From Bacteroidota bacterium (GTDB lineage Bacteria; Bacteroidota; Bacteroidia; JABEUT01): DNA of 59,115 nt. The notes under the pieces were generated by a model. It did not search any database. It saw nothing but the letters and a program-made list of their open reading frames with translations, and was not told the DNA's origin. The stretch lies in NCBI GenBank assembly GCA_013289475.1, contig JABCZW010000009.1, forward strand, positions 1 through 59,115, in the 5' to 3' direction. The number at the start of each line of letters is the position of its first letter. The first letter of the stretch is position 1. A program made the position numbers and the translations under genes. Positions 21,609 through 28,530 of this stretch are shown piece by piece.

Positions 21609-24029
21609 CTAGAACGTGTACTTAAGTGTTAAACCACCGTAATATGTTGATAAAAAAGGAGCAGGCAAAATATAACCATCTCCACTACCACCATCAGGTG
21701 TTTGCGCCAATGACTTAATATTAGCACCATAGAACAGGAAAGTGTAGTATGTGCTGTTTGTTAAGTTATCTGCCCCAACAAAAGCATCTACGCTAAAATG
21801 AGTGCCAATCTTCTTCATATATCCAATTTTTGCGCCAAGTAGGCTATATGCTTCTGCTGAACTTCCATTGTCGAAAGTAACGGGGACTTTATCAACGTAT
21901 TGGAACTTTACATTAACATAAAAACCGGCTTTGGTTGCAAAATCAATCCCTAAGTTGAAGACATTAGGCGCTACACCAACAGCTTTATTGCCTGAATAAT
22001 CATTCAGTACGGTATCGCCACCTGATTTACTTGCTCCGTAAACTTTAAAGTCTACATACTTAAAGTTTGAATAAGTATAACTGATCCAAGGGCGTAACAT
22101 GGTAATTGCACCGTCTTTATTATTAATAGCATTAAAAGCCAAATAAAGTTCGGCGCCAATATTGCGTTGCTCCCCTGCATTTGTATAAAAGGATATTCCA
22201 TTGTTATTTTCCTGTATCAACCTGTTGGTTATATCCATATCGAACAATGCCAACTGGTATGAAAGTTTGTGATTCATTACTGTACCCTTAGTGCCTATTT
22301 CATATTGCATGGCGCTTTCAGGTTTCAATGCTGAATCTACTTTCCCTAGTGAGTTTGTCATTTCACTTATCAATGCTGGTGAATAACCTTCGCTTACACT
22401 TGCATATACCGAAACATTATCACTAAATACTTTTATAACAGACGCACTTGGTGTAAATACCGGCGCAAATGGTTTTGTAAACTGAGGGTAGTTCAGGTAA
22501 ACGCCATTCGAAGTAAATGGAAGAAACCCGGGGTTACCCGTATATTGCGAGAAGGCCGAGGTATAATAATTCTGTGTGCCAAATTCCTGGAAGTTAAGAC
22601 TGCCACCTAAAGTAAAGGTAATTTGTGAAGGCAGTTTAAAATTCCAATTGGTAAATATGGCATAATTCATAGCATAGTTCTGCGCATCCGATGGAATCAT
22701 GCCTCCTGTGCTGCTGGTAAAAGGAGAGTTTGCTATGAATGGAAGAATAAAGTCGCCTTGTATCATCTGGTTTGTTTTCTCAAATGAAAAACCTAGGGTA
22801 CCATCCACTGTAAGTTTATCGCTAACATTTTCATACATAAAGGCAGTTCTTCCGCCAAAACTCAGGTTTATATCCTTGGTAAACCCGTGTGCAAAAGGTT
22901 GGTTTAAGGTATTGCTTGTTGTAAATAAAGTACTTTGGTTACTAAACCCTTTGCAGAACTGAAACTTATCAGTAACACCTGCACGGAAACTCTCAATTTC
23001 TACCATTGAGGTATTAAGCGCGTAAAAGGAATTGTTAACCGAATCAATGTTACGTTTATAGAATGCTGCGCTGTCTATTTCACCTGCTAAATGTTCAACA
23101 GAATGGCTATAAGAAATAAATGTTGAAACGCTTTGTTTGCTGCTTGGTTTGAACTGCCCTGCGAAAGTTATAAAATCCTTCAGAGAGTTATCATTCATTC
23201 TGAAACCTCCATAGGTTTGGTGGCCGTAATTAATATAGATACCTGAATTTGTGCCGGCAACATTTATTGTTGTATTAGTACGAAATAAGCCATAGCTTCC
23301 GCCTATTGCCTGTTCCTGAATACTGGTTTCGTTAACAACAGGAGTATATAAATTTACTGCCCCTGCTATGTAGCTACCGTATAACGGAGTTGGCCCTTTA
23401 TATATTTCTACTTTACCTAAAGTGCTGAAATCTATATCATCCATTACGGTCATGCCTGTGGCATCGGTCACCGGAATGTTATCTATATACATTTGGTAAC
23501 CCAAGCCGTTAAAGTTCATGCTTAGCCCTACATTCGGTATATACCCGCGAATGGTAATACGTTGCCCTCCCCATTGTGTGCGTGCCTGCATATCGACTCC
23601 CGGAACATCATTCAAAGCATCCTGTAGCTTTAAGCCTGAAGTTCGGTTTAAATCGGCCTGGGTTAGGGTATTAACTGTTTGGGCCTTTTTTATTCCTAAT
23701 ACCTGGGCTTCACTAAGTTCATTACTCGATACTTTGAGCATTACGGTAATGGATTGTGATTTATCGCCAACAGCAATTGTTTGTGCAGCATAACCTATGC
23801 TTGTTATACTTATGCTGTCAAAATTAGCTGGGCTTTGCAAGGTAAACATACCCTGTGCATCGGCGCTGGTTGCAATAGTTGTATGTGGTACCGATACTGC
23901 AGCACCAGGAATGGGTTGGCTGGTTTCATTGTCTTTTACCGTGCCCTTTACTGTATACTGGGCATTGGCAAATTGCAATGATATAATAAGTGCGGCCGAA
24001 GCCGATAAAATTCGTTTTATTGTTTTCAT
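21609..24029 (-). CDS. TonB-dependent outer-membrane receptor (heme/iron type by context)
   Basis: 806 residues. The signal peptide (MKTIKRILSASAALIISLQFANAQ) is followed by a CarboxypepD_reg beta-sandwich (about 27-110, VKGTVKDNETSQPIPGAAV), a plug domain (about 120-230, LQDALNDVPGVDMQAR ... GGQRITIRGYIPN) and a 22-strand barrel ending in LTLKYTF. It would move a large chelate across the outer membrane using TonB energy. The ABC genes that follow on the same strand make heme or a siderophore the probable ligand. It is preceded by an imperfect inverted repeat and by one of two paralogous membrane proteins. Confidence 0.9.
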   Translation of the reverse strand: MKTIKRILSASAALIISLQFANAQYTVKGTVKDNETSQPIPGAAVSVPHTTIATSADAQGMFTLQSPANFDSISITSIGYAAQTIAVGDKSQSITVMLKVSSNELSEAQVLGIKKAQTVNTLTQADLNRTSGLKLQDALNDVPGVDMQARTQWGGQRITIRGYIPNVGLSMNFNGLGYQMYIDNIPVTDATGMTVMDDIDFSTLGKVEIYKGPTPLYGSYIAGAVNLYTPVVNETSIQEQAIGGSYGLFRTNTTINVAGTNSGIYINYGHQTYGGFRMNDNSLKDFITFAGQFKPSSKQSVSTFISYSHSVEHLAGEIDSAAFYKRNIDSVNNSFYALNTSMVEIESFRAGVTDKFQFCKGFSNQSTLFTTSNTLNQPFAHGFTKDINLSFGGRTAFMYENVSDKLTVDGTLGFSFEKTNQMIQGDFILPFIANSPFTSSTGGMIPSDAQNYAMNYAIFTNWNFKLPSQITFTLGGSLNFQEFGTQNYYTSAFSQYTGNPGFLPFTSNGVYLNYPQFTKPFAPVFTPSASVIKVFSDNVSVYASVSEGYSPALISEMTNSLGKVDSALKPESAMQYEIGTKGTVMNHKLSYQLALFDMDITNRLIQENNNGISFYTNAGEQRNIGAELYLAFNAINNKDGAITMLRPWISYTYSNFKYVDFKVYGASKSGGDTVLNDYSGNKAVGVAPNVFNLGIDFATKAGFYVNVKFQYVDKVPVTFDNGSSAEAYSLLGAKIGYMKKIGTHFSVDAFVGADNLTNSTYYTFLFYGANIKSLAQTPDGGSGDGYILPAPFLSTYYGGLTLKYTF

Positions 24030-24049
24030 ATATAAATATTGAAATGTGA

Positions 24050-24082
24050 ATACTCAGAGCATTAATCAAGTGCTATGAGTAT
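24050..24082 (-). promoter_or_regulatory. Imperfect inverted repeat ahead of the TonB receptor
   Basis: ATACTCAGAGCA (24050-24061), nine-base spacer, TGCTATGAGTAT (24071-24082): arms pair at 11 of 12 positions. It ends 21 bp before the receptor ATG, in the 114-bp gap, where no perfect TAnnTTTG is seen. It could be an operator or a leader hairpin; it does not read as a classical Fur box. Confidence 0.5.
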
Positions 24083-24143
24083 CTGTTCCTATACTATTTG
24101 CATAGAATACAGAAATTAAAAAAAACTGGTGTTTTATTCCTTG

Positions 24144-24677
24144 TTAGGCCATTGATGGCGGGTGCCATATATCGGCTATCAAAGCATAATGGTTAACCAA
24201 AACACAATTTGCGCTGATAGTTGTTATTGCATGAAAAAAGAAAGAAGGGGAAATATTTTCTTTCGACAGATATTCTTTGAATATTTTACCGGCGAGGTCA
24301 TCATTGCTATTGCTCGATGACTGGCTCTGCGCAAACATTTTTTTCATAAACCCCGTAAATTCAGCTACCAGGTTTGTTTCTTTACTGTCGTCAAAGCAAA
24401 CAACCTTTATTTCGTCCGAATAAAATTCTAGACTGATAATGTCAAAATGCTTTCCATTGTATGTAAATTCTTTATTCCTTTCTGACCAATTTAGGTCGGA
24501 ATACTGGGTTGGAGTAAATGAAAAACTACAAGTATTGTTCAGAGAAACTTTATGCATATTTATCAAATCAGCCGATTGTTTTTTAACAGTCCCCATTTTC
24601 AGAGAATATAACACCTGTATACCGCCGAGATAGATAAGGAAAATAAAAGCAAGAGTTATCCCTGTAGCTCTTTTCAT
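24144..24677 (-). CDS. Small membrane-anchored protein, paralogue of the 26.2-26.8 kb gene
   Basis: 177 residues from the ATG at 24677. One N-terminal hydrophobic segment (TGITLAFIFLIYLGGIQVLY) is probably a signal anchor; the rest is soluble. The middle (FSFTPTQYSDLNW, EFTYNGKHFDI) and the extreme C-terminus ADIWHPPS match the protein at 26232-26765 residue by residue, and lengths are the same. The Ser/Asn-rich stretch SQSSSNSNDD before KIFKEYL also corresponds. I do not recognise the family. A TTG at 24719 extends the frame, but it lies in the loop of the terminator hairpin. It stands 114 bp upstream of the TonB receptor on the same strand. Confidence 0.65.
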   Translation of the reverse strand: MKRATGITLAFIFLIYLGGIQVLYSLKMGTVKKQSADLINMHKVSLNNTCSFSFTPTQYSDLNWSERNKEFTYNGKHFDIISLEFYSDEIKVVCFDDSKETNLVAEFTGFMKKMFAQSQSSSNSNDDLAGKIFKEYLSKENISPSFFFHAITTISANCVLVNHYALIADIWHPPSMA

Positions 24678-24706
24678 TCGTGACACAATTTTAAAAAAGA
24701 GATAAT

Positions 24707-24734
24707 CCTTGCCCCGCAATATTTCGGGGCAAGG
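24707..24734 (-). terminator. Intrinsic terminator of the triple-HTH gene
   Basis: On the minus strand a 10-bp perfect stem CCTTGCCCCG / CGGGGCAAGG with an eight-base loop, 45 bp after the stop of the 24780-26096 gene. It is followed by a CTCTTTTTT run. Confidence 0.75.
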
Positions 24735-24779
24735 GTCTCAAAACACATCTTACATCTCCTCATCTCTCAGCAAAAAATA

Positions 24780-26096
24780 TTAAGCAACCTTGCTTAAGGT
24801 GTTATTATCAGTCATTCTTCCGTTTGGGTTTAAGTTAGGAGCCACGTTAAAATGCCTCCTCACATATCTATACAATTTATTGTATGTCATGCCTTGCTTG
24901 TAAAACGATGTAACCCAATCATGTAATTCGGTGATATTCATATCGGGACTGTGTCTTATTTTTTTTGCAATCATACTGTGTACTTCTGTAGGCAGTTGAA
25001 GCCTTTTTCTGCCTCTTACTTTCATTTCCAGCATACTGTTAAGGCCACAATCTTTATATAGCCTGCACCACCGGTGAATACTACCTACTGCCACACCTGC
25101 CAAGTTGGCTAACTCCATTTTGGTATAGCTGGGGTTAGCCTTCAACAGCATCAACATTCTTATTCTCTGCTTCCTTTCTGCGGAACACTTACTATACATG
25201 TCCTGTAAGTTCTGCACTGTTTCTTTAATAGGCATGTTCAATGCTTTCGCTGCATCAAGCTCACCTTTAAAATGCCTGTGCACGTAGCGGTGCAGGGTGT
25301 AGTACTTTATATTGGGTAAATAATTTTTACTTACCTTTCGATAAAGTTCTGAGAAGTTTTGAAATTTGTTTTGCTCGAACTGTTTTTCAATAAAGGTGAA
25401 TACCTCAGGTGTAATTACAAGTGTAAGTTTATATTCCAACAATTTCTCCAGGCCGCCTTCTCTATAAATGCCCGACCATTTAATTATACTCCCATAACTA
25501 ACATTTAATTTATTGGCCAGATCAAGTCGAGACATTTTATCATTTTGCTTCAATGTCATCAGCATTTCTATTCTGGGTTTGATCCTTGGCAGGCAACGTG
25601 CGTGTATCGTCTGTAAATCAGTAATTGATTCTTTTATAGGTAATTCTAATATCCTGGTTACAGTGAGAGTTTCGCCAAAATACATCCCCAGGTATTTAAT
25701 TAAGGTGGAGTATTTAATGCCCGGCAAGTGGTTATCCTTAACCCACGCATGCAGTTCGACATAGCTCTGGAAAGGCTCAATTTTATGCCTTCTTTCAATA
25801 GCATTATATATATCGGGCGAAAAACCAATGGCGTTTCCGTTCCTGTTTCTGTATTTTCCACGTTTAACTTCCATGAGTTTCCCTATGCCGCCATTTGCAT
25901 ATAGTTCATACCATTTGCTAATACTATTGTATGCGACATCAAGCCTGCGTGCAAGTTGAGATTTCGTAATAACAGGTTCTTCTGAAAGTATAATGAACAT
26001 TTGAATACGTGGCTTTAAAAAAGAAGAACAGTTTTTATGGATTGACTCTAATTCGTTAAGCGATTCCTTAATAGGCAATTGTTTAATTGGTTTCAT
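24780..26096 (-). CDS. Triple-repeat transposase-type helix-turn-helix protein, no catalytic domain
   Basis: 438 residues from the ATG at 26096. The whole protein is three copies of a 135-145-residue module starting at residues 7, 152 and 288. Each begins with (L/M)PIKE(S/T), then a conserved cysteine (23, 168, 304), KPRI or KQRI, an HTH of the form LAxxLxVxxxSIxKWxxxYxxGG (about 48-70, 193-215, 329-351), a basic linker and a second helical part ending in KYxxLxRYVxRHF. The design is that of IS630/paired-type transposase DNA-binding regions (HTH_29 plus winged HTH), but no DDE domain follows any copy. It is probably a DNA-binding regulator recruited from a transposase. It is flanked by two paralogous membrane proteins. 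An in-frame start at 26171 gives 25 extra residues of no clear character. Confidence 0.75.
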   Translation of the reverse strand: MKPIKQLPIKESLNELESIHKNCSSFLKPRIQMFIILSEEPVITKSQLARRLDVAYNSISKWYELYANGGIGKLMEVKRGKYRNRNGNAIGFSPDIYNAIERRHKIEPFQSYVELHAWVKDNHLPGIKYSTLIKYLGMYFGETLTVTRILELPIKESITDLQTIHARCLPRIKPRIEMLMTLKQNDKMSRLDLANKLNVSYGSIIKWSGIYREGGLEKLLEYKLTLVITPEVFTFIEKQFEQNKFQNFSELYRKVSKNYLPNIKYYTLHRYVHRHFKGELDAAKALNMPIKETVQNLQDMYSKCSAERKQRIRMLMLLKANPSYTKMELANLAGVAVGSIHRWCRLYKDCGLNSMLEMKVRGRKRLQLPTEVHSMIAKKIRHSPDMNITELHDWVTSFYKQGMTYNKLYRYVRRHFNVAPNLNPNGRMTDNNTLSKVA

Positions 26097-26189
26097 GATA
26101 TTAGTATTTAAATCATTGTTCTTACTAAACTTATGTAGATTGTATTTCTTCTGATTACCGATAGGTATCAAATAAATACGGTGTAACAG

Positions 26190-26208
26190 AATAACGGTAA
26201 GCGTTATT
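26190..26208. repeat. 7-bp inverted repeat upstream of the triple-HTH gene
   Basis: AATAACG (26190-26196), GTAAG, CGTTATT (26202-26208), in the 135-bp gap between the first paralogue and the triple-HTH gene. A short operator candidate; no T-run follows, so a terminator is less likely. Confidence 0.35.
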
Positions 26209-26231
26209 TCTTAAAATCCGTTACAATTAAT

Positions 26232-26765
26232 TTAGCAAATGGACGGCGGATGCCAGATATCGGCGGTGAGTAAAGAAAGAGTAGGGGTATTTTCTTTAGT
26301 AATGATTGAAATAGATTTTTCTATTTTAGGTTGGACCAAAACCGGATTGAGAGGTAAATATTCCTTAGTTATCTTACTTAAAACGTCATTATCGCTACTG
26401 TTTGATTGCTGATGAGTAGAGAATAGCTTATTTGAGAATTTTTGAAAGGCATTTGCAATTTCAGTTTCCTCATTATCATTATAACATGAAACTTTTATGC
26501 TTCCAGACAAATATTCTATACCCGCAATATCGTAATGTTGCCCATCAAAAATAAACTCTTTATTCTTATCTAACCAGCTTAATGAATTGTATTGAGAAGT
26601 TGTAAAAGAAAAGTCTTTGGTGTCTACTGCTTTAGCGCTATGTCTCAATATAGTAGCGGTGGCATCACGTTTTGCATTATCAATTTTGACCCAATACATT
26701 AACTGCATACCACCTAAGTAAAGTACAAATGTTAGAGTAAGAAATATAGCAGCAATTCTATTCAT
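26232..26765 (-). CDS. Small membrane-anchored protein, paralogue of the 24.1-24.7 kb gene
   Basis: 177 residues. The N-terminal hydrophobic anchor (IFLTLTFVLYLGGMQLMYW) is followed by a soluble domain. Matches to the 24144-24677 product include YLGGxQ, FSFTxxQYxxLxW, NKEFxxxGxHxDI, a Ser/Asn-rich stretch followed by KEYL, and the last residues ADIWHPPS. It is the first gene of the minus-strand run that leads to the TonB receptor and has a consensus promoter. The shared C-terminal His-Pro-Pro tail could bind a metal or be an interaction peptide; this is a guess. Family not recognised. Confidence 0.65.
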   Translation of the reverse strand: MNRIAAIFLTLTFVLYLGGMQLMYWVKIDNAKRDATATILRHSAKAVDTKDFSFTTSQYNSLSWLDKNKEFIFDGQHYDIAGIEYLSGSIKVSCYNDNEETEIANAFQKFSNKLFSTHQQSNSSDNDVLSKITKEYLPLNPVLVQPKIEKSISIITKENTPTLSLLTADIWHPPSIC

Positions 26766-26772
26766 TGAATTA

Positions 26773-26801
26773 CAAATGTAGGTAATTCAAATACAAAACA
26801 A
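26773..26801 (-). promoter_or_regulatory. Consensus promoter of the first paralogue
   Basis: On the minus strand TTG (plus 26799-26801), 18-bp spacer, TACATTTG (plus 26773-26780), eight bases before the ATG at 26765. The leader would be only a few bases long. Confidence 0.7.
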
Positions 26802-26806
26802 AAGCC

Positions 26807-27550
26807 TTATAATGTTTTATTAAGCAGCTTGGTAGAATTAAGCAATTTTTGAAAGTGCTTGTCCTTTAATGCAATTTTCATAAGCTCTATATGCTCCATA
26901 CGGTGGCAATCGGAGCCTACAAAACTTATTAAGTCTTTATCAATAAGCCACTGTGCTGCTTTACGGGTTTGTGCAGAATAGTGTCCTGTAATAGAGTTAA
27001 TATTCATTTGGAGCAATATACCCCTGTCAGAAAGCTCCTGGTATTTTTCAAAGTTATTCTGCCAGAAACCATAACGTTCAACGTGTGCCAGTATAGGCCT
27101 GTAGCCACGAGAAGCCATTTCAAAAACAATATCATTTATATTGTCAGGCGGGTTTATAAACGGTATTTCCCACAGTAAATATTTGGTTCCGAATGTGAGT
27201 ACATTTCCGTCTTTCAGTTTTTTCTCAAATTCATAATCGAGATAATATTCTGCCGCTGCCTCTATTTCTATATCAATCCCGGCTTCTTTTGCCGCCTGTC
27301 TTACTTTTTCTAATCCGCCTAATATTATTTCGGGTGTGTTGCGGTAGCCATCTGTCATTATATGCGGAGTGGTAACAACTTTTTTATATCCCAATTCCTG
27401 CATTCCTTTTAACATGGCCAATGAATCCTCCATAGTTTGGGCTCCGTCATCAATACCCGGAATAAAATGAGAATGCATATCAGTGCGCAAGACCGAAAGA
27501 TCAAGCGTTGGCAGTTTGGGTTGTTTCTTTAAAAAATCAAATAGAGCCAT
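26807..27550 (-). CDS. PHP-type tyrosine-protein phosphatase (CpsB/YwqE family)
   Basis: 247 residues. Metal-dependent phosphotyrosine phosphatases of this type dephosphorylate the Wzc/CpsD kinase that drives capsule or exopolysaccharide export. PHP metal ligands are visible: DMHSHFIPGIDDGA near residues 24-37, TTPHI, AEYYLD, HVERYGFW and the late GSDCHRME. Length fits (about 245-255). It follows pfkA and a sugar epimerase by nine bases, which fits a polysaccharide cluster, though no kinase or polymerase is visible here. Confidence 0.87.
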   Translation of the reverse strand: MALFDFLKKQPKLPTLDLSVLRTDMHSHFIPGIDDGAQTMEDSLAMLKGMQELGYKKVVTTPHIMTDGYRNTPEIILGGLEKVRQAAKEAGIDIEIEAAAEYYLDYEFEKKLKDGNVLTFGTKYLLWEIPFINPPDNINDIVFEMASRGYRPILAHVERYGFWQNNFEKYQELSDRGILLQMNINSITGHYSAQTRKAAQWLIDKDLISFVGSDCHRMEHIELMKIALKDKHFQKLLNSTKLLNKTL

Positions 27551-27558
27551 GGAGTAAA

Positions 27559-28530
27559 TTAAGCGGATAAAATATGTGCGATCCTTAATAAGCCTTCATT
27601 AATATCTACATTGTGTTTTCGTGTCTGAGTGAAAGGGGTAAATACAATATGGTTATTTACAAGCCCAGCCATCTCATGAGTTTTGCCGTTTAGTAATCCT
27701 TCCAGTGCAGCTACTCCCAAGCGACTTGCCAATACGCGGTCGAAACAGGTTGGGGTGCCGCCACGCTGCATGTGGCCTATTACAGTAACACGTGTATCGT
27801 AGTGGTTGAATTTTTCTTTCACCTTCCTGGCTATTTCAAATGCTCCGCCTTCTTTATCTCCTTCTGCCACAATAATTATGCAGGATGATTTATGTCGCTT
27901 CCATCCTTCTTCCAGGCGGCGCGAAACTTCGTCAATATCTGTTTTGCTTTCGGGTATAAGTATATCTTCTGCTCCGCAACCAACGCCACCATTAAGAGCT
28001 ATGAAGCCTGCATCCCGTCCCATTACTTCAACAAAAAATAATCGATTGTGTGAAGCCGCAGTATCGCGTATTTTATCTACTGCATCTATAACTGTATTAA
28101 GTGCAGTATCGAAACCTATGGTATAATCAGTCCCGAAAAGATCATTATCAATAGTGCCGGGCACACCCATGCAAGGTATATTGGTAACCGTTGTAAAGGC
28201 TTGCGCACCCTTAAATGTTCCATCTCCGCCAATAAGCACAAGGCCATCTATATTGGCATCTTCTAATTTTTTCTTTGCCTGCAGCATACCTTCTTTTGTA
28301 CGGAAGCGTTCGCTGCGAGCAGTTTTAAGTATAGTACCGCCACGTTGTATGATGTTGCTTACCGAATGAGAATCCATAGGAAGGAAATTGCCTTCAATAA
28401 GGCCATCATAACCTTCGCGCACTCCAATCATTTCAATATTGTGAAACAAACCTGCCCGAACTACAGCACGAATGCAGGCATTCATGCCCGGTGCATCGCC
28501 ACCTGAAGTAAGTACAGCTATTTTTTTCAT
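27559..28530 (-). CDS. pfkA: ATP-dependent 6-phosphofructokinase
   Basis: 323 residues. TSGGDAPGMNACIRAVVR is the N-terminal ATP site, GGDGTFKGA the second glycine loop and PGTIDNDLFGTDYTIGFDTA the fructose-6-phosphate/catalytic region with the aspartate base. GGDGT rather than GGDD points to ATP, not pyrophosphate, as phosphoryl donor. MQRGGTPTCFDR is the C-terminal substrate motif. It overlaps the epimerase gene by four bases, an unusual partner for a glycolytic enzyme. Confidence 0.94.
   Translation of the reverse strand: MKKIAVLTSGGDAPGMNACIRAVVRAGLFHNIEMIGVREGYDGLIEGNFLPMDSHSVSNIIQRGGTILKTARSERFRTKEGMLQAKKKLEDANIDGLVLIGGDGTFKGAQAFTTVTNIPCMGVPGTIDNDLFGTDYTIGFDTALNTVIDAVDKIRDTAASHNRLFFVEVMGRDAGFIALNGGVGCGAEDILIPESKTDIDEVSRRLEEGWKRHKSSCIIIVAEGDKEGGAFEIARKVKEKFNHYDTRVTVIGHMQRGGTPTCFDRVLASRLGVAALEGLLNGKTHEMAGLVNNHIVFTPFTQTRKHNVDINEGLLRIAHILSA

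Follow-up and report, generated by a model that had tools for sequence, protein, structure and literature searches.

The window analyzed here is the whole 59,115-nt stretch of contig JABCZW010000009.1 from a Bacteroidota bacterium (genome G000). On its minus strand lies a single-copy gene, hereafter the array gene, that encodes three consecutive modules with helix-turn-helix (HTH) motifs (Table 1). The gene belongs to a run of minus-strand genes that reads, from 29534 down to 18797, epimerase, phosphofructokinase, CpsB-like protein, 177-aa WHPP protein, array protein, a second WHPP protein and then a TonB receptor (PF00593), behind which follow a substrate-binding protein (PF01497), a permease and an ATPase; neighbors without a Pfam match were named by reading their sequence. 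The WHPP proteins (26232–26765 and 24144–24677 in the window; loci L051–L065) form a family of ~180 aa with an N-terminal hydrophobic segment and a C-terminal WHPP motif, often ending in Cys, and neither of the two window members matched Pfam or NCBIfam.

Table 1 Coordinates of the array gene, its modules, adjoining features and a reference IS630 element
Feature	Position	Strand	Basis or remark
Array gene, three paired-like (IS630 N-terminus type) modules, no DDE	24780..26096	minus	ORF, 438 aa, ATG start
Module 1, residues 7-140	25677..26078	minus	repeat alignment and model
Module 2, residues 152-276	25269..25643	minus	repeat alignment and model
Module 3, residues 288-416	24849..25235	minus	modeled alone with 27 sequences
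RGRKR, residues 361-365, between the two helical halves of module 3	25002..25016	minus	sequence
36-bp non-coding element, candidate operator or 3'UTR element	24736..24771	minus	28/36 identical in G005, corresponding place
Terminator-like hairpin, after the 36-bp element	24707..24734	minus	inverted repeat of different sequence there in G005 (by eye)
Upstream partner gene, 177 aa, N-terminal hydrophobic segment, C-terminal WHPP	26232..26765	minus	precedes array in G000, G005 and G009
Reference IS630 element	L042: ORF A 1447-1959, ORF B DDE_3 890-1324

The initial annotation had described the gene product as three tandem transposase-type DNA-binding modules, each with PIKE, a conserved Cys, a KPRI-like motif, an HTH and a second helical part. 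Local (Smith-Waterman) alignment of the modules against one another gave scores of 255, 200 and 227, compared with a mean of ~29 and a maximum of 60 for shuffled sequences (500 shuffles each), so that the internal repeat lies far beyond chance; the modules, of ~130 aa each, are clearly homologous. Taken together with the Pfam, NF033545 and hhalign results below, this bears out the tandem architecture within one ORF. The three modules start about where they had been placed (residues 7, 152 and 288), but PIKE itself is one residue off, at 8, 153 and 289. The KPRI-like motif (KPRI, KPRI and KQRI) and the HTH are present in every module, as described. The Cys is likewise found once per module in the window protein (Cys23, Cys168 and Cys304), but the G005 orthologue retains only Cys168 and otherwise has Ser and Asn at the aligned positions, so the conserved Cys fails as a property of the array family. 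Pfam families above their cut-offs were HTH_32, HTH_29, HTH_23, HTH_28 and HTH_Tnp_1. The chain is basic (72 K+R vs 40 D+E), its modules are separated by short linkers, and Pfam recognized no ligand-binding or dimerization domain in it.

Sequence profiles place the origin of the modules in IS630 transposases. The NCBIfam IS630 profile NF033545 aligned with the window protein in three stretches, the best covering profile positions 2–108 of 299, and three array proteins scored 71.9 (the window protein), 86.3 and 59 bits, all below the cut-off of 100; within an IS630 transposase, every module corresponds to the N-terminal third and to nothing beyond it. When a profile built from ten array modules was compared by hhalign with A6, an alignment of 13 single-module proteins (L041 included) that are nearly all IS630 ORF A, the probability was 99.9 and the E-value 1.2e-35 over 135 columns. 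Outside the genus, a DDE sequence adjoins the ORF in 12 of the 14 single-module loci examined (tblastn E <= 3e-5), the weakest such neighbor being a 22-residue match at L046; at the remaining two the sequence either ends 95 nt after the ORF (L041) or offers 1416 nt of room (L022). The single-module relatives are therefore ordinary parts (ORF A) of two-ORF IS630 elements. According to the initial annotation, homologues that proved to be plain transposase N-termini would have spoken against its reading, which is true of these single modules but not of the array. Like the two-ORF IS630 elements of Bacteroidota (NF033545), each module has a PIKES-type start, an HTH, a linker and a second helical half. 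Whereas those elements carry one module, a KVARKSHVKKD-like tail and an adjoining DDE ORF, the array has two or three modules and neither the tail nor a DDE domain. In a tree of the modules, 13 array modules fell on one side of a branch and 14 other rows on the other with moderate support (90/89), and the modules of G000 and G005 paired by position (support 99–100). A common array ancestor of the two- and three-module genes is no more than a possibility in this tree.

Two of the relatives deserve separate mention. Genome G688 harbors a two-ORF IS630-type element in several near-identical copies (L042, L048 and L050; eight module matches in the genome), with ends reading TAATACGATAGTGA and TAATACGATAATGA, and this extant element serves well as a reference for the ancestral module. 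The L022 locus (1501–1998; G216:C22) encodes one module standing alone, in a protein of 165 aa, and the next 1416 nt contain no DDE sequence. Its neighbors, named by their sequence, are a histidine kinase gene on one side and a MutS-like gene on the other; the protein has a long branch in the tree and is possibly a one-module domesticated form.

Modeled alone with 27 aligned sequences, module 3 reached a pLDDT of 88.3 and a pTM of 0.56 in AlphaFold2, with helices at 10–19, 22–36, 42–49 and 53–66 and then at 86–98, 104–114 and 121–132 (module numbering). The whole-protein model (pLDDT 70.9, pTM 0.28) repeats one helix pattern three times, module 1 having helices at 13–22, 25–39, 45–52 and 56–74 and then at 94–106, 112–122 and 129–139; confidence between modules is low and their arrangement is not fixed. 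The top three Foldseek matches of module 3 in the PDB, over 112–118 columns, were paired domains: Pax6 (6pax; probability 1.00, E 0.013, the best but a weak E-value), Pax5 (1k78; 1.00, E 0.017) and Prd (1pdn; 0.95). TnsB of the type V-K CAST came next (8ea3; 0.92), and the DNA-binding domains of SETMAR and Mos1 stood further down the list. Structure prediction, which the initial annotation had proposed as a check, thus returned two helical halves with paired domains as the best three matches. The rmsd to the paired domains is 9–11 Å across both halves, and therefore each half matches a paired domain on its own, whereas the two are placed differently relative to each other. In VIA-align, the paired domains scored Z 6.0–6.1, in a middling range around 6 and tied with many unrelated HTH proteins; two GATOR1 chains ranked first (Z 6.5–6.7 over 64 residues), so that Pax and TnsB stand at or just below these chains by Z and lead only in Foldseek. 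The likeness of the whole model to GATOR1, with which VIA-align led at an rmsd of 13 Å, was taken as a common helical arrangement. At the sequence level, a PDB profile search returned only weak wHTH matches (best AdcR, E 0.01), and PAX (PF00292) was not among the Pfam matches of the array protein at E <= 1.

Module 3 shows the two three-helix HTH halves and the linker by which paired domains are recognized, as judged from secondary structure, a pLDDT of this order and Foldseek, with the placement of the halves unsupported. Each module is, as modeled, a bipartite paired-like domain of two helix-turn-helix halves joined by a linker, and three bipartite modules amount to six potential DNA-contacting HTHs per 438-aa chain. 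IS630-Tc1-mariner transposases are described as having a paired domain, in which a GRPR-like motif separates two HTH motifs, and behind it a DDE domain (PMC8533490); the same layout is given for Sleeping Beauty (PMC7827188). RGRKR of module 3 resembles the GRPR type and sits at the position corresponding to that motif. Tandem helical DNA-binding halves are also shared with TnsB of type V-K CAST (8ea3, 7svw, 8aa5, 8rdu), where they read transposon ends, and with the transposase-derived DNA-binding domains of Mos1 and SETMAR (4u7b, 5hoo, 7s03); these entries come from transposases or, in the case of SETMAR, from a transposase-methylase fusion, whereas the array consists of binding modules only.

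Neither Pfam nor NCBIfam found a DDE match in the array protein. In tblastn searches with seven DDE ORF B proteins against the window and its flanks, the best window match had an E-value of 0.13 and lay far from the gene (53023–52958), and the only match within 2 kb of the array gene was a 16-residue ORF B segment at 27227 (E 7.7). IS630-type DDE_3 was detected in 0 of 11 genus genomes by a search whose control was positive in 3 of 14 known genomes. With no DDE near the gene and no DDE_3 across the genus, a nuclease partner of the IS630 type is not to be seen in these genomes, of which several are incomplete. The original statement that a nuclease domain is missing is upheld by these results, and a degenerate DDE domain was rejected after the Pfam, NCBIfam, ORF B and genus-wide DDE_3 searches yielded nothing. 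No long inverted pair starting with TA was seen around the array gene, which is a weak test only.

Two alternative readings turn on these observations. The two-ORF IS630 relatives encode their DNA-binding and DDE parts separately, which would suit a decaying transposase remnant or a subunit working with a DDE protein in trans. This reading is largely refuted and very improbable, given that DDE_3 is missing from the genus, the window holds no DDE relic, the gene is single-copy in its own genome, and the array is kept across species under strong purifying selection (see below). Alternatively, the array might silence transposons, competing for IS630 ends like a nuclease-less transposase fragment and so protecting the genome; its modules descend from IS630 DNA-binding parts, and the absence of DDE_3 from all 11 genomes is what successful protection would give. 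The five array-less genomes also have no DDE_3, however, so the array and the absence of DDE_3 do not go together, and living IS ORF A proteins are remote from the modules, with about 20–35% identity to module 3.

We searched the 11 genus genomes with the ten-module profile and found the array in six, as two full three-module genes (G000 and G005; orthologues 60% identical), one gene cut by a contig end after the first module of the three-module form (G009) and three two-module genes of 289 aa (G002, G003 and G006). The two forms never occur together in one genus genome. The profile found no array in G001, G004, G007, G008 and G010; completeness is high only for G007 among these (99%), and some of the absences may therefore reflect gaps in the assemblies. 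A sample of 395 genomes of the class contained frames with at least two modules only in G000, G002, G003, G005 and G006, and a sample of 395 from the phylum added a single further frame with several matches, in G269. With short peptide patterns, which can miss relatives, no relative was found in a viral contig collection, and a genome contig collection yielded none in a first scan and five loci, all from the genus, in a second. Two Rhodothermus plasmid records showed 28% identity to an annotated helix-turn-helix protein. The same architecture, which the initial annotation had suggested seeking in other Bacteroidota, thus exists in further genomes, all within the genus: as a three-module gene in G005, the start of one in G009 and two-module genes in G002, G003 and G006.

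In the two-module genes, NG86 estimates for three pairs gave dN of 0.037, 0.068 and 0.056 and dS of 0.91, 1.08 and 1.37 (dN/dS about 0.04, 0.06 and 0.04). The first 87 codons of G000 and G009 gave dN 0.151 and dS 1.81 (dN/dS about 0.08), and for the complete three-module genes of G000 and G005 dN was 0.291 with dS saturated. These substitution patterns indicate that the open array frame is kept by purifying selection. Lost catalysis with a reading frame preserved under purifying selection, the mark of a domesticated transposase, is what is found here.

The distribution also bears on whether the protein is a nucleoid-type or DNA-bridging structural protein, in which several HTH modules tie distant sites together, rather than a classical regulator. 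Six HTHs on a basic chain, with short inter-module linkers and no recognized ligand-binding or dimerization domain, would fit such a role; occurrence in 6 of 11 genus genomes, and in none of the sequence of the 99% complete G007, is patchy and unlike that of a core architectural protein.

A separate protein was found in G269, which belongs to another family of the phylum (L075 3125–4891; G269:C78). It comprises 588 aa with six IS630-kind HTH units (NF033545 in six stretches, 226.8 bits; HTH_23 in six stretches), no DDE match was listed for it, its gene start overlaps the end of a HerA-like (DUF87) gene, and 16 genomes of its family contained no other full-length match. The phylum therefore has another transposase-HTH array of different build; in the bolder, modular-reader version of the reading given below, it would point to more than one origin of such arrays.

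The genomic setting of the array varies. Nine of the 11 genus genomes contain a total of 15 WHPP genes, followed by a TonB receptor gene in 10 cases, by the array gene in three and by another gene in two (L055 and L062). G004 has a CpsB-WHPP-TonB stretch without the WHPP-array pair, and in G005 the pair is found elsewhere in the chromosome; the pair gives the impression of a unit that is gained and lost as a whole. Because it occupies two different chromosomal places (G000 and G009 vs G005), the regulated neighbor would not be constant. The G004 site is too diverged from G000 to fix the ends of the pair, and an excision footprint was set aside since the same divergence hides any target duplication. 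In each of its three genomes, the two-module gene stands in divergent orientation to an outer-membrane-type gene. A defense link was also discarded, PADLOC returning weak HTH matches only.

Short conserved elements accompany both forms of the gene. Just 3' of the three-module gene, between its stop codon and the terminator, the 36-bp element matches its G005 counterpart (L032 7325–7360) at a level beyond that of shuffled sequences (mean 18.1, maximum 25 identities; 1000 shuffles), and upstream of the gene the G000/G005 match did not rise above its shuffles. The element occurs once per carrier, in both complete three-module loci and in none of the other nine genus genomes; its pattern was written from G000 and G005 alone, and mismatches there are therefore zero by construction. 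In G002, G003 and G006, an identical 25-bp block, TTGGATATGAGCAATAAATGACAAA, lies 85–86 bp upstream of the two-module gene in the divergent intergenic region. A run of 25 invariant bp arose in 6 of 20000 column shuffles, and the block is present once in each of the three carriers and in none of the other eight genus genomes with up to three mismatches allowed. The two elements share the 11-mer ATGTGTTTTGA (L033 vs G000), a length reached in 3 of 5000 shuffles; this is a post hoc comparison, in which the word was noticed first and six pairs were compared, and in L034 and L035 the word shared with the 36-bp element is only 7–8 long.

By its position inside the transcript, between stop codon and terminator, the 36-bp element is odd for an operator, and it could be a tiny ORF or 3'UTR element rather than a protein-binding site. 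It holds an ATG that reads MR-C--CFE in both G000 and G005 (by eye). No Rfam match was obtained at E <= 0.1 in 24000–27600, and a promoter scan returned fewer sigma-70-like sites than shuffled sequences, the sigma-70 model being uninformative for Bacteroidota. For related IS elements, ends of the TAATACCAATTTG or TAATACGATAGTGA types were obtained, by aligning three copies of one IS and from inverted repeats; judged by eye, the conserved elements are unlike them, and a similarity to IS ends was dismissed. That the private elements look unlike the IS ends found also counts against a transposon silencer, which we consider improbable. The bridging protein appears to us equally improbable, as the private elements are single-copy and adjoin the array genes.

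The array is kept in the genus and its single-module relatives are IS630 parts; by this comparison of sequences the genus array is a transposase DNA-binding domain that was duplicated and has been retained under purifying selection. With the array conserved, under purifying selection and devoid of a nuclease, the domesticated transposase DNA-binding array proposed initially fits well; the regulator role and the long, tripartite operator of that proposal are putative, with the 36-bp and 25-bp elements as candidate sites. The protein is probably a sequence-specific, local regulator, for which we infer DNA binding, element binding and regulatory outcome alike. The reading we favor, with somewhat better than even confidence, is that the domesticated DNA-binding part of an IS630 transposase, present as a tandem array of two or three modules without DDE, binds one long local site and regulates itself and its neighbors. 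The IS630 DNA-binding part would have been duplicated in tandem, with the DDE nuclease lost or never present. The array would be made as the second gene of the WHPP unit or, in the two-module form, from a divergent promoter, would fold as two or three paired-like units, and would bind a single long and unique site near the gene that encodes it. Such binding may change transcription of the array gene and its neighbors; the targets in the window would be the WHPP gene and perhaps the following TonB receptor and ABC uptake genes.

A Pax protein has a single paired domain. The modules of the array are bipartite like those of Pax (6pax, 1k78, 1pdn) but differ in the placement of their halves and in having no Pfam PAX match. 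A bolder version of the favored reading, which we hold to be possible though rather unlikely, is a modular reader parallel to Pax, in which IS630 paired-like modules were added successively, each with its own specificity, to read a single genomic address of 25–60 bp. If this were true, the number of modules and the length of the address would change in step over evolution.

Eukaryotes are known to have derived transcription factors from the DNA-binding domains of transposases. Among bacterial cases, the array differs from TnpA-REP (RAYT), a transposase of another type (Y1 HUH), in keeping only DNA-binding modules. TnpA-REP is described as the first prokaryotic domesticated transposase, with a possible role in mobilizing REP sequences (PMC8266576); the likeness is that of a transposase taken over by its bacterial host. 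Animal transcription factors derived from transposons and F-box genes that captured HTH domains (PMC10027918 and PMC12062965) are eukaryotic cases in which, as in this bacterial array, transposase HTH domains are reused by hosts. A search of one open library, with a few word choices and texts available in part, turned up no bacterial tandem array of paired-like modules. To the known domesticated transposase DNA-binding domains, the array would add tandem paired-like modules in bacteria. Its two- and three-module versions, with their candidate sites, would offer a system for testing how a transposon-end reader becomes a long-site regulator; they would let one test whether module repeats extend the site, and the arrays might serve as natural long-address DNA-binding scaffolds.
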